Made by a program: the position numbers and the translations under genes | Notes under the pieces: model-generated | The model's database searches: none | What the model was told of the DNA's origin: nothing | What the model saw: the letters and a program-made list of their open reading frames with translations, nothing else | From: Chitinophaga filiformis | GTDB taxonomy: Bacteria; Bacteroidota; Bacteroidia; Chitinophagales; Chitinophagaceae | Length of the DNA stretch: 64,000 nucleotides | Assembly (NCBI RefSeq): GCF_021646545.1 | Contig: NZ_JAKIRP010000010.1 | Coordinates: 1-64,000 of the forward strand | Direction: 5' to 3' | Shown here: positions 1 to 5,159 of the stretch, one piece after another | Numbering within the stretch: the stretch's first letter is position 1 | How the letters are laid out: each line of letters starts with the position of its first letter

Positions 1-102
1 TGCAATAATCTGACGCCTAATCAGGCTCATTTAGCCAGTGGAGCATTAAAGCGAAGATGGATCGCTAAAAAGAAGGTAAAAACAACAGAAATAGCAGTGT
101 AA
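1..102 (+). CDS. C-terminal end of a DDE integrase-type transposase (partial)
   Basis: The window opens inside a reading frame that gives 33 residues and a TAA stop at 100-102. It contains LTPNQAHLASGALKRRW followed by a lysine-rich tail. This resembles the extreme C-terminus of integrase-core transposases of the IS3/IS481 type, where a 'LTP.QAH' segment precedes a basic 'KRRW' end. The rest of the gene lies outside the window, so family and intactness cannot be judged. The stop codon overlaps the first of several TGTAAAG boxes, suggesting that the gene runs right up to an element end. It could also be a domesticated integrase fragment. Confidence 0.55.
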   Translation, partial: CNNLTPNQAHLASGALKRRWIAKKKVKTTEIAV

Positions 103-148
103 AGCTTAATTTGCACATCTGTAAAGCTTAATTTGCGCATCTGTAAAG
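98..148 (+). repeat. Tandem 22-bp repeats beginning TGTAAAG
   Basis: Two adjacent 22-bp units (98-119 and 120-141) begin TGTAAAGCTTAATTTGC and differ at one base. A third TGTAAAG box starts at 142. The boxes recur at 173 and 206 and, inverted, near 702 and 737. Repeated short boxes next to a transposase gene are typical of transposase-binding ends such as those of IS21-like elements; that role is inferred here. Confidence 0.6.
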
Positions 149-267
149 CAAATAATGAATTATTTCAATAACCTGTAAAGTCAATCCTGAAACTTCTTGC
201 AAAAACTGTAAAGTTTTTCTGTACTAAGACACTATGCGGGAAATACTGATTTTTACTGCTTCTTTAT

Positions 268-369
268 CCGCTTAGATACCGCTTTGATACCCATTATCCT
301 ACGTTAATCCTACGTTCATGAACGTAGGATTAACGTAGGATAATGGGTATCAAAGCGGTATCTAAGCGG
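268..369. repeat. Perfect 102-bp palindrome, no loop (palindrome 1)
   Basis: Bases 268-318 are the exact reverse complement of 319-369, centred on CATG, so 51 bp pair with no loop. Each arm is itself built from pairs of near-repeats: CGCTTAGATACC beside CGCTTTGATACC in the outer half, and TATCCTACGT beside TAATCCTACGTTC in the inner half. There is no T-run like that of a simple terminator. Perfect palindromes of this size are normally unstable in bacteria, so its persistence implies recent origin, arm-to-arm correction, or selection. Confidence 0.95.
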
Positions 370-410
370 GTCTCAGGTAAACCGAAACCAGGGTTAAGGT
401 TCGGTCGATG

Positions 411-492
411 TTCGGTCAACCTAGCCTCATCCTCCCTTCATCTTCCGTTCGGGAACGGAAGATGAAGGGAGGATGAGGCTAGGTCGACCGAA
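411..492. repeat. 80-bp palindrome with 2-nt loop (palindrome 2)
   Basis: The 31 bases 420-450 pair perfectly with 453-483 around a GG loop. Pairing continues outward to 411/492 with a single mismatch (418/485), giving about 40 bp of stem. The tip reads CTTCCGTTC-gg-GAACGGAAG. The left flank also carries direct copies of GTTCGGTC. The inner arm resembles that of palindrome 3, with different bases compensated on both arms. Confidence 0.95.
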
Positions 493-538
493 TCTCAACT
501 ATATCTCAGGTACATAAAAGTTACCTGACCCACTCCGG

Positions 539-653
539 TACCAATCCGGTACCAACGGTGTACCAATGGCCTCATCTTATGTTCATCTTACGTTCAAAAC
601 GTAAGATGAACATAAGATGAGGCCATTGGTACACCGTTGGTACCGGATTGGTA
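539..653. repeat. Perfect 56-bp stem with 3-nt loop (palindrome 3)
   Basis: Bases 539-594 are the exact reverse complement of 598-653, with a CAA loop. The outer part of each arm is about three near-copies of a GGTACCAA-like unit. The inner part is two near-copies ending CATCTTACGTTC. The tip matches the CTNCGTTC...GAACGNAG plan of the other two palindromes. As RNA it would form an extremely stable hairpin on either strand. Confidence 0.95.
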
Positions 654-769
654 GTGAATCTTTATCGAACACAAAGCCCGAAATGTCTGAGAACAAAAAA
701 AACTTTACAGTTTTACGGTGGAGGTGCAGGATTGACTTTACAGGATGACCGCCTTCTCAACAGCAATAC

Positions 770-1588
770 TTACTGCCTGCCAAAAAACCTGTTAAAATAA
801 AACAACTGGTACATGATCGAATTACTCCAGTAATCCCAGTTATGCTCTCCGGGACGTTCAATATAATCGTGAGAAATGCCTTGCTCCAGCAAACGTTGGT
901 GTAACTGGCGGTTCACATCTATGAAAAAGTCCTTTACACCGCAGTCGATGATCAGTGACAGGGAATCGTTCTTTAAACCGGACAATTGGTTCACCACCAC
1001 ATTTTTGTCCCAGTTTTCAGCATGTTCTTTATACGCACCCAGTCTGAGCGCCAGATCCCAGTTATTAGGGAAAGGCCGGAAATCCACTCCCCCGCTCATA
1101 CTGCCTGCTGCGCCAAACGTCTCCTGATGACGGATGGCCAGGTACAGCGCTCCATGTCCGCCCATACTTAAGCCTGTAATAGCACGGTACTGGCGCGCGG
1201 CCTTGGTGCGGTAATGCTGATCTATCCACGCAGGGATCTCCTTACCTACATATGTTTCAAAACGCATGGCACTGTCTACAGGACTATCAAAATACCAACT
1301 GCTGAAACCCCCATCAGGAAATACCAGTATTTCCTGGTAGACATCCGCCATGGCGGGAACCGCAGCGATTTTCTTAACGTAATCAGCATAGTTGCCGCTA
1401 TAACCATGCAGTATGTATACCACCGGATAACGCTGTTTTGCCTTATCCTTATAGCTGTCGGGCGTTACTACCACGCACTTGATGCTTCTGTGCATAGCTT
1501 TGCTGAAAATGGCAATTGTGTCCACGCTGGCGGCCTTTGTAGTCAAAAAACCGCTTAAGATTAACAGCGTTCCTATCAGATACTTCAT
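770..1588 (-). CDS. Secreted alpha/beta-hydrolase esterase (esterase D/FrsA-like)
   Basis: 272 residues with an N-terminal signal peptide (about residues 1-20, ending TTKAAS). The body is the putative-esterase fold of the esterase D / tributyrin esterase group: an oxyanion-hole segment YILHGYSGN near residue 58, the nucleophile elbow GLSMGGHGA with Ser141, an acidic residue in the IIDCGVKD segment (Asp215 or Asp220), and His249 in PGEHNW. This indicates a periplasmic or surface carboxyl-ester hydrolase; the substrate is unknown. It is transcribed away from the SPFH gene. Upstream (115 bp) it shares the intergenic region with that operon, and downstream it faces the palindrome region. No terminator is obvious after it. 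Confidence 0.85.
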   Translation of the reverse strand: MKYLIGTLLILSGFLTTKAASVDTIAIFSKAMHRSIKCVVVTPDSYKDKAKQRYPVVYILHGYSGNYADYVKKIAAVPAMADVYQEILVFPDGGFSSWYFDSPVDSAMRFETYVGKEIPAWIDQHYRTKAARQYRAITGLSMGGHGALYLAIRHQETFGAAGSMSGGVDFRPFPNNWDLALRLGAYKEHAENWDKNVVVNQLSGLKNDSLSLIIDCGVKDFFIDVNRQLHQRLLEQGISHDYIERPGEHNWDYWSNSIMYQLFYFNRFFGRQ

Positions 1589-2831: not shown

Positions 2832-5159
2832 TTATTTTCTTGCTTTCTGCATCGGGTTACCACCGGTAGATGCACCACGTACACTCTGTGACTGACGGAA
2901 CAGTTCAAAGCGGGACGGAGCTACTACACGAGGCCATGTATTGTTGGACTCATCGATATCAGCAGTTTCACGCTGAGGATCCAGTTTGATAGCCACTACC
3001 TCTTTGTCCTTCGCGAACACCTTGGATACATGGTTTTCGCTCTTACGCCAGATATACGCAGAGATACGGTCAGTTTCCTTAGTACCATCTGCATATGTCC
3101 ACTCGATGATCAGTGGCATTACCAGACCTCCTACGTTGGAGAAAGATACTTCATAGAAGTTCTTCTTGCTCTCATACAGGCGCTTCTCTTCAGGAGATAG
3201 TCCGGCAGTGAAAGTTTCATAGGCCGCCTTATCTTCCGGTGTTACTTCAAAGCGGTTCCATTTCACGTAGAAGTCCTGCAGGCTTGTATCCTGATCTACC
3301 ACAAACTGCATACCGGCAGCCTTGTTACGGGCACGGGATATGTGGTCAGCAGCGCGATCGTACTTCTGTTTTGCTTCCGCTTTGCTGATCTGCGGATTTT
3401 TTGTATCCAGGCGGAACCATTTCACGCTATCCAGGGAAATATCAACTGGTTCGATACCATAGAACCAGCCACGCCAGAACCAATCCAGGTCTACTGCAGA
3501 TGCATCTTCCATGGTACGGAAGAAGTCAGCAGGTGTTGGATGTTTGAATGCCCATCTGCGTGCATATTCACGGAAAGCGAAATCGAACAATTCTCTGCCC
3601 ATTACCGTCTCACGCAGAATGTTCAGCGCAGTAGCTGGTTTTGCGTAAGCATTTGGTCCAAACTGTACGATGTTCTCAGAGTTCACCATGATAGGCTCCA
3701 GCTGATCTTTCGGCATCTTCATGTAGTCGGTGATCTTGTAGGCCGGTCCGCGGTTGGAAGGGAAGTTATTGTCCCACTCCTGTTCTGTCAGGAACTGGCA
3801 GAAAGTATTCAGACCTTCATCCATCCATGTCCACTGACGCTCGTCAGAGTTCACGATCATCGGGAAGAAGTTGTGTCCTACTTCGTGAATGATCACACCG
3901 ATCATACCGTTTTTGGTAGACTCGGAGTAAGTACCGTCTTTCTCTGCACGACCGTAGTTGAAGCAGATCATCGGATATTCCATACCATTGGCAGCTTCAA
4001 CGGAGATAGCTACCGGATAAGGGTAAGGAATGGTGTGTTTGGAATATGTCTTAACGGTATGCGCTACTACTTTGGTAGAGTAACGGTTATACAGCGGATA
4101 AGCTTCCGGACCGTAATAAGACATCGCCATTACTTTCTTACCTTCCACATTGGTAGCCATCGCATCCCATACCAGGCGGCGGGAAGATACCAGGGCGAAG
4201 TCACGTACATTCTGCGCTTCATATACCCATGTCTTACGACCCGTAGCATGTCCTGCCAGTGCTTTCTTAGCCTCATCCAATGTTACCACTTCCACAGGCT
4301 GTTTTGCAGACTGTGCCTGCTGCCAGCGCTGGAATTGTGCGGATGTCAGCACGTCTTTGTAGTTCTGACATTCACCGGTAGCACCTACCACGTGATCAGC
4401 AGGAACGTTCATGCTCACTTTGAAATTACCAAAGGTCAGCGCAAACTCACCACGGCCGGTGAACTGTTTGTTCTGCCATCCCTGGAAGTCGGAATATACT
4501 GCCAGGCGTGGATACCACTGGGTAATTGTATAGAGGTAGTTCTTGTCTTCAGGAAAGTATTCATAACCACCACGGCCGCCCTGTACCATACGGTCAGAGA
4601 TGTTGTACCACCACTCTACCTTAAAGCGGAGCTTCTGGCCCGGCTGCAGTGTCTGTGGCAGGTCAATGCGCATCATGGTCTGGTTGATGGTGTAAGGTAA
4701 AGCCTTGCCGCTTTCGTCGGTCAGCTTCACGATGTTCACACCGAATTTCTTGCTGCCCGGATTACCCAGTATGCCGTTTACAGTACGCATACTCATCTTT
4801 TCAGACATAGAGCTGCCATCGAAGCTGTTGTTGTCGCTTTTCAGGTCGTGCTCATTTTCGTCCAGCTGCAGCCAGATGTAGGTCAGCGGGTCGGGCGAGT
4901 TGTTGTAATACGTAACAGTTTCCGCACCTGTGAGCTTCTGCTGCTCATCGTCCAGCGTAGCGGTAATGTCGTAGTCAGCCCGTTGCTGCCAGTATTTGGG
5001 TCCGGGCGCGCCGGAAGCAGAGCGGTATTCATTAGGATCTGTCAGCATAGTACCCAGCTGCTCAAAGCGGTTACCATGATTAGAGCCTGGATTTTGCGCC
5101 TGCGCCAATGCCGTCATAAAGCATAGGGCCAGTGCCAGTTTGAAGGATTTTTTTCTCAT
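2832..5159 (-). CDS. Secreted M1 family zinc metallopeptidase
   Basis: 775 residues from ATG 5159 (a TTG two codons earlier is less likely). The signal peptide is MRKKSFKLALALCFMTALAQ. The zinc site is HEVGH at about 425-429, with the third ligand Glu about 448 in WMDEGLN, the HExxH-(18)-E pattern of M1 gluzincins. The substrate-recognition motif is degenerate (GMEYPMI, where aminopeptidase N has GAMEN). The C-terminal 200 residues are a less conserved domain rich in charged residues. It probably cleaves peptides in the periplasm or at the surface. HupE/UreJ is 44 bp upstream on the same strand, a common neighbourhood in Bacteroidota. Confidence 0.9.
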   Translation of the reverse strand: MRKKSFKLALALCFMTALAQAQNPGSNHGNRFEQLGTMLTDPNEYRSASGAPGPKYWQQRADYDITATLDDEQQKLTGAETVTYYNNSPDPLTYIWLQLDENEHDLKSDNNSFDGSSMSEKMSMRTVNGILGNPGSKKFGVNIVKLTDESGKALPYTINQTMMRIDLPQTLQPGQKLRFKVEWWYNISDRMVQGGRGGYEYFPEDKNYLYTITQWYPRLAVYSDFQGWQNKQFTGRGEFALTFGNFKVSMNVPADHVVGATGECQNYKDVLTSAQFQRWQQAQSAKQPVEVVTLDEAKKALAGHATGRKTWVYEAQNVRDFALVSSRRLVWDAMATNVEGKKVMAMSYYGPEAYPLYNRYSTKVVAHTVKTYSKHTIPYPYPVAISVEAANGMEYPMICFNYGRAEKDGTYSESTKNGMIGVIIHEVGHNFFPMIVNSDERQWTWMDEGLNTFCQFLTEQEWDNNFPSNRGPAYKITDYMKMPKDQLEPIMVNSENIVQFGPNAYAKPATALNILRETVMGRELFDFAFREYARRWAFKHPTPADFFRTMEDASAVDLDWFWRGWFYGIEPVDISLDSVKWFRLDTKNPQISKAEAKQKYDRAADHISRARNKAAGMQFVVDQDTSLQDFYVKWNRFEVTPEDKAAYETFTAGLSPEEKRLYESKKNFYEVSFSNVGGLVMPLIIEWTYADGTKETDRISAYIWRKSENHVSKVFAKDKEVVAIKLDPQRETADIDESNNTWPRVVAPSRFELFRQSQSVRGASTGGNPMQKARK

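Follow-up and report, generated by a model that had tools for sequence, protein, structure and literature searches.

Long palindromes built of 11-nt units in Chitinophaga filiformis: a probable REP/BIME-like family and apparent landing site of an IS3-family element

Three palindromes beside an insertion sequence end

How three long, near-perfect palindromes can lie in a row within one intergenic spacer, and what kind of element they represent, is the question raised by this locus of Chitinophaga filiformis. The host is a soil dweller. In bacteria, a long and perfect palindrome should normally be cleaved or lose length. The stretch of DNA analysed here (the window, 64,000 nucleotides) opens a 312-kb contig, C1, of which it covers the first 64 kb; the genome, 9.07 Mb in 29 contigs, is referred to as G000. 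A sequence-only reading had pointed out the palindromes, and recomputation returned the same coordinates, arms (51, 40 and 56 bp), loops and mismatches. These arms are far above chance expectation: ten shuffles of the full 64 kb that preserve dinucleotide frequencies gave a longest arm score of 9–10. The spacer and its borders comprise the following features.

1..102, plus strand: 3' end of an IS3-family transposase gene (33 codons and a stop, by translation); the window begins at the contig edge inside the element
98..231, plus strand: right end of the IS, with TGTAAAG repeats starting at 98, 120, 142, 174 and 207; its outer end, ...CTGTACTAAGACA, lies at 231
232..234, strand not applicable: CTA, a 3-bp target duplication, matched beside the left IS end with which contig C18 begins
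268..369, strand not applicable: hairpin A, 102 bp; 51-bp arms, no loop, no mismatch; units such as CTTTGATACCC and ATCCTACGTTA
411..492, strand not applicable: hairpin B, 82 bp; 40-bp arms, 2-nt loop, one mismatch
539..653, strand not applicable: hairpin C, 115 bp; 56-bp arms, 3-nt loop, no mismatch; units such as CCAATCCGGTA and TCATCTTACGT
684..744, minus strand: solo, diverged, inverted IS right end that faces hairpin C; its outer end at 684 is 87.5 bp from the C dyad
770..1588, minus strand: neighbouring esterase gene (PF00756), whose stop is separated from hairpin C by 117 nt; served to anchor the comparison of orthologous loci

The region had been described as free of genes. At the level of open frames of 60 aa, this holds for approximately 103–769, but not for the first 102 bases, which encode the transposase C-terminus, and the region further contains the IS right end (98–231) and the inverted solo end (684–744). 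The 11-nt tandem units within the arms of A and C had also gone unmentioned.

The first 127–150 bases of the window recur at the start or end of contigs, at eight contig ends. The C-terminus, the only part of the transposase seen in the window copy, resembles those of related IS copies (L116 and L117), and the right end resembles that of an intact relative in another genome (L179 in G030). This relative has the build of an IS3 insertion sequence, namely two ORFs, an rve transposase and TG...CA ends, the IS ends reading TGT...ACA. Its second ORF matches NF033516/IS3 with 226.6 bits (NCBIfam cut-off 160) and PF00665, while the first has no match in Pfam or NCBIfam. At L117, truncated copies of the IS 3' end stand in tandem at 3900–4700, one right end being followed by a second IS tail. 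These tandem tails suggest aberrant one-ended events.

Inverted copies created falsely during assembly would offer a trivial explanation of the palindromes, and contigs do often end at the hairpin repeats. Hairpins of this kind are nevertheless carried by three single-contig genomes (G007, G070 and G086) and occur at orthologous positions of independent assemblies. The artefact that the sequence-only reading had named as its own refutation is thus contradicted, by assemblies rather than raw long reads, and its probability is practically negligible. Contigs that end at or inside near-perfect hairpins are found at L107, L108 and L233 (G010), at L316 and L326 (G087) and at L308 and L309 in the own genome. 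The hairpins account for some contig breaks in Chitinophaga assemblies.

The second refutation named there, that the palindromes are ordinary terminators, fails as well. An intrinsic terminator has a GC stem and a T-run just past a stop codon, and a scan that requires a T-run found no terminator-like site in 100–1700. Ordinary gene-end terminators are a separate class with arms of 17–35 bp: two 400-kb samples contain 22 other palindromes (arms of 17–40 bp), of which 20 are found no more than 36 bp from the 3' end of a gene. At locus L045, the solo C hairpin is flanked by two conserved terminators of this kind. The hairpins are found in gaps of every gene orientation and mostly at a distance from genes (see below), and the identification as ordinary terminators was rejected.

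Survival of the palindromes by loss of SbcCD was likewise ruled out. Genes resembling sbcC and sbcD lie side by side on contig C29; the sbcD match is above its cut-off, and the adjoining sbcC-like frame of 1284 aa is below a cut-off that one of 14 control genomes passes. Since such genes are present, absence of SbcCD is not the cause of palindrome survival.

A dispersed family and its likeness to known repeats

BLAST of positions 100–770 against the own genome gives at least 124 matches (40 of 68 candidates scored). At an arm-score threshold of at least 26, 40 of 42 retrieved stretches contributed to the catalogue, with 60 hairpins in all: 16 of type A, 18 of type B, 18 of type C, 4 of type D and 4 others. 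Four pairs of stretches represent adjoining contig ends, three via a 3-bp repeat around one IS insertion and one via a common B hairpin; the ends of C26 and C8 carry one and the same B hairpin, which is hence counted twice among the 18. Merging the contig ends leaves approximately 36 loci with 59 hairpins. Hairpins occur solo or combined, the usual composite order being D-A-B-C, and at two loci (L043 and L050) C stands on the other side of B. Several C hairpins are preceded by a type-specific flank, TATCTTCC, and followed by AATACATACTATA.

None of the 40 stretches has a hairpin within a predicted gene, the gene calls coming from a simple codon-score script rather than a curated annotation. 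In 32 stretches, 100 bp or more separate the hairpins from the closest predicted gene; the distance is smaller in eight. Where genes flank a stretch on both sides (n = 26), they are arranged in tandem in 15 cases, convergently in eight and divergently in three, compared with 197, 49 and 49 reference gaps in a 400-kb sample. With its many dispersed, extragenic, palindromic copies, the family belongs to the REPs in the broad sense. Its arms are modular: in 109 arm sequences (arm score of at least 30, some of them near-duplicates), self-identity is 0.639 at a lag of 11 and 0.179–0.328 at lags of 5–10 and 12–19.

A further intergenic repeat, also dispersed and reading roughly GTAGCGCGGGGTTTCAACCCCGGG, was seen close to several hairpins; relatives have it in their orthologous spacers.

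Queried with the window sequence, 8 of 59 genomes gave a match, all within the genus (8 of 36, the own genome included, against none of 23 outside); in G024 and G030, which are among these eight, the match is via the IS end only. A scan of an 84,980-species collection with an A-type core pattern returned 37 stretches. They come from records under the name Chitinophaga (S165, pinensis YS-16, YR627, ginsengisoli, rhizophila and filiformis) or from a single metagenome bin with the label Flavihumibacter.

Two other identities were discarded. A phage or plasmid origin is contradicted by blastn of 150–770, which matched none of 72,556 plasmid and 50,697 phage records; one viral contig has a single copy of a 20-base unit pair. 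The Rfam model mir-2041 scores above its gathering threshold on a B hairpin (L003, 1774–1841), with an alignment that preserves mainly the pairing while many letters are changed. A microRNA identity was rejected in favour of a generic hairpin match, and the passing of this model on a bacterial hairpin implies that it seems to admit generic hairpins.

The sequence-only reading knew of no standard feature class with this layout, but a near one exists in the REP and BIME repeats, which are likewise targets of IS3-family elements (PMC1525189). REP targeting is described there as experimentally supported for the IS3-family elements IS1397 and ISKpn1, and ISPsy8 breaks its REP at one point with a three-base repeat (PMC1525189). 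Common to both systems are dispersed extragenic palindromes that serve as specific IS3-family targets (PMC1525189), and the grouping of several palindrome types recalls BIMEs (PMC2817692). The Chitinophaga hairpins differ from REP and BIME repeats as described in these sources by arms of 35–58 bp that are built of 11-nt units.

Like REPs, the hairpins are dispersed, extragenic, palindromic, grouped and situated beside IS elements (PMC1525189), and they could in principle be REPs of the known kind that is mobilised by a RAYT transposase. The own genome, however, has no match to Y1_Tnp (PF01797), a search that was positive in five of 14 control genomes, and no RAYT-type transposase was found in it. 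The elements of the window also measure 102, 82 and 115 bp, whereas the REPs of the GTAG and CGTC superfamilies are 20–40 bp long and tagged by a GTAG or CGTC tetranucleotide at their end (PMC3733652). Membership in the GTAG/RAYT group was rejected on both counts, and RAYT mobilisation of the known kind is very improbable. The two superfamilies share the extragenic hairpin repeat with the present family, and CGTC repeats apparently also lack a dedicated transposase (PMC3733652). The word "Chitinophaga" is absent from the main text of that article.

Among titles and abstract openings of the open-licence PMC literature, no description of these hairpins was found. A further comparison is offered by Porphyromonas gingivalis, a member of the Bacteroidota. 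Its BrickBuilt repeats are likewise intergenic short tandem units, situated inside a MITE and 49–591 nt from the nearest coding sequences, but the units are 23 nt long, the element has small inverted-repeat ends and no long palindromic arms, and there are 19 copies in ATCC 33277 (PMC4596501). Its abstract does not mention IS3 landing (PMC4596501). By description only, the family also resembles the 92 bacterial stem-loop families, which are repeated, mostly intergenic sequences with a predicted stem-loop (PMC2267715).

IS3-family ends facing the hairpins

In the own genome, the right end of the IS lies at eight contig ends and the left end at eight. All eight contig-end right ends face an A hairpin, which places these IS copies at a palindromic repeat, as known for IS3-family elements, with the A dyad 55–88 bp away. 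The distances are 87, 88, 76, 77, 65, 55, 66 and 55 bp; in the window, the dyad of hairpin A is 87 bp from the IS end, or approximately 8 × 11. Seven of the eight left/right end pairs have 3 bp in common (CTA, TAG, ATC, AGG, AGT and twice GAT), as expected of a short target duplication, the pairs being assigned by the match itself and the partners of the two GAT pairs being indistinguishable. The unmatched pair consists of the right end on C13 (CCT) and the left end on C20 (AAA). Gene order backs only one pairing, that of C18 with C1: in five of eight relatives, the orthologues of the C18 start adjoin that of the esterase gene.

Loci from several genomes supply 32 distinct right ends, with a palindrome beginning within 130 bp in 26 and none in six. 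Applied to these 26, with the other six left out, the phase test shows the distances clustered at a period of 11 (R = 0.788, Rayleigh p approximately 1e-7); the sample is neither independent nor free of bias, because some loci were found via the IS end and others via the hairpin. A period of 10.5 fits the 26 distances almost equally well (R = 0.766; n*R2 of 15.3 versus 16.2 at 11.0). For the eight contig-end copies alone, a period of 11 gives R = 0.96 and p approximately 6e-4.

The two genomes of other species that match the window via the IS end only provide a further comparison. In the 150 bases past the right end, lag-11 runs occur in all four copies of G030 and in 5 of 10 copies of G024, another two of which have lag-22 runs alone and three neither; runs at lag 10 or lag 12 are absent from all 14 copies. 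Overall, the same IS3 subgroup adjoins differing 11- or 22-nt arrays in 11 of the 14 copies (L178–L198). The register of the target may hence be more conserved than its sequence.

On sequence grounds, adjacency, orientation, the ~11-bp phase and the 3-bp duplication together mark 11-nt arrays as the apparent landing sites of the IS3-family element. It differs from the elements with REP targets (PMC1525189) by inserting beside the hairpin, in steps of ~11 bp, and not at one point within a short REP. This is an apparent case of an insertion sequence that reads a repeating register near a palindrome.

At the window locus of G086 (L289) and G079 (L290), the end of a second IS3-like transposase lies in the same spacer. 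This spacer has thus been struck more than once.

Concerted arms, orthologous sites and the 11-nt register

The sequence-only reading had asked for active maintenance, a very recent origin or selection to explain such long arms. The layout is indeed unusual, and a need for active maintenance or turnover is supported by arms that change in concert, at orthologous sites as well. Counted across copies, changes matched on both arms outnumber pair-breaking changes in A-like hairpins (96 versus 30) and in B hairpins (12 versus 0), whereas pair-breaking changes prevail in C (6 versus 9), D (1 versus 4) and the type of G007 (0 versus 1), all these ratios being biased because the copies were detected by their pairing. 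The counts cover 44 of 53 A-like, 10 of 18 B, 10 of 14 C, 2 of 4 D and 4 of 5 G007-type copies, those with more than 12 differences from the consensus being left out. The comparison of orthologous sites is the better evidence for concerted arms.

At locus L043, a B hairpin occupies the orthologous place in the own genome and in four of eight relatives. The arm sequences differ between the genomes, yet each is self-complementary: arms measure 42 bp in the own genome (two mismatches), 41 bp in G086 (none), 35 bp in G026 (none), 46 bp in G087 (one) and 57 bp in G079 (six). In G010 and G100, a different, imperfect hairpin of 11-nt units is present, G070 has a weak one, and G099 has none at the threshold used. 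At L041, five of eight relatives hold hairpins, the types of which vary: D, A and B in the own genome, A and B in G087, a B-like and another hairpin in G086, a D-like one in G026, A in G100 and an imperfect C-like one in G010, with none in G079, G070 and G099.

The full A-B-C set of the window locus occurs in none of the eight relatives. The possibility that the relatives simply lack the element is contradicted by a B hairpin with IS ends in G079, imperfect hairpins in G070 and G099, and lag-11 tandem arrays in G026, G010 and G100; G086 has another IS3-like gene, and in G087 nothing was seen. Taken together, orthologous stretches of the window and L043 loci show lag-11 runs in 10 of 16 cases, and runs at lag 10 or lag 12 in none of the 16. 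At L045, none of 11 aligned relatives has the C hairpin. These comparisons imply that the site persists while its sequence is replaced at two or three of the four loci. At such hot spots, replacement of an old hairpin and insertion of a new one would look alike in this comparison.

The sequence comparisons establish a dispersed family with 11-nt modularity, an adjacent IS of defined orientation and phase, and arms that are paired across species. In the preferred reading, to which a probability of roughly two thirds (about 0.68) is assigned, the hairpins form a REP/BIME-like family of 11-nt-unit palindromes on which an IS3-family element lands; hairpin-templated synthesis would homogenise their arms, and copies would spread between loci. 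No coding or terminator role of the hairpins is visible. The three palindromes of the window lie in an intergenic hot spot, and an IS3-family element has inserted beside hairpin A. A DNA strand would fold at the hairpin, and replication or repair would copy one arm from the other. The arms would stay near-perfect because the DNA itself folds and one arm templates the other: 11-nt units may slip before the copying, which would then restore identity, so that a substitution, or the gain or loss of a unit, would show up on the two arms simultaneously, as the concerted changes suggest. Copying of one arm from the other on a folded strand is a known mutational route for inverted repeats in yeast (PMC8604942). 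Copies may also spread and replace each other between loci by transposition or ectopic copying, the IS3 transposase being a mere suspect; a search of the own genome revealed no mobilising enzyme for the hairpins.

One alternative holds that the hairpins are MITEs, derived by deletion from a cut-and-paste or copy-out element and mobilised in trans, with the IS3 element as a possible agent. They are dispersed and short, several C hairpins have the type-specific flanks given above, hairpin C is present at two loci where the compared relatives are without it, and solo IS ends adjoin hairpins. However, hairpins without a nearby IS end exist (e.g., L102 and several solo C loci), the IS ends lie outside the palindromes, and the IS has 3-bp duplications of its own, while no clean target duplication was found around a hairpin in the loci compared with relatives. 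The spacers are too variable for the boundaries of a single hairpin insertion to be resolved. A MITE origin is conceivable but doubtful.

According to a second alternative, selection keeps the hairpins as RNA structures, for end protection, termination or double-stranded RNA, and the compensatory changes reflect this selection. The predicted RNA fold of 150–770 is very stable (-374 kcal/mol; z = -36, 20 shuffles), the B hairpin of L043 begins 30 nt past a stop codon in G086, and 11 corresponds to one turn of an A-form RNA duplex. Pairing that is kept while the arm sequence changes is predicted equally by selection for an RNA or DNA hairpin. Against this alternative stand the T-run scan of 100–1700, the distance from genes, the use of tandem, convergent and divergent gaps alike, and the ordinary terminators that separately flank the C hairpin of L045. 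The sequence, number and type of the hairpins also vary among orthologous sites. Maintenance as RNA structures is unlikely.

More tentatively, and with less than even odds, the hairpins may represent a new class of self-templating elements, both arms of which grow, shrink and mutate jointly in quanta of 11 nt as one arm is copied from the other, which occupy long-lived sites while other copies repeatedly overwrite their sequence, survive beside SbcCD and act as dedicated, register-read IS3 landing pads. Tens of palindromes of ~70–120 bp coexist in one genome with sbcC- and sbcD-like genes, and the orthologues pair while their sequence turns over. Such retention of pairing makes hairpin-templated homogenisation of the arms testable with natural replicates.

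The 11-nt unit extends beyond the hairpins. In samples of intergenic DNA, the lag-11 excess per 10 kb is 17.4 in the own genome, 17.8 in G007 and 30.5 in G070, compared with a rate of 0.1–0.5 in coding DNA and with 1.2 in G001 and 0 in E. coli (100 kb) as controls. No palindrome of score 26 was found in a 200-kb sample of G001. The intergenic excess implies that units of 11 nt are more widespread in these three Chitinophaga genomes. This lag test with controls replaced a period count by a tandem repeat finder, which was set aside because its score threshold favours periods near 11. Eleven is not the sole repeat length: further strong lags are 27 in the own genome and 7 and 14 in G007 and G070. 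At 2.0–2.2 Mb of G070 (L266–L275), a very strong intergenic 7-nt periodicity reaches 135.6 matches per 10 kb at lag 7, and these 7-nt arrays are a second class of tandem array in the genus.
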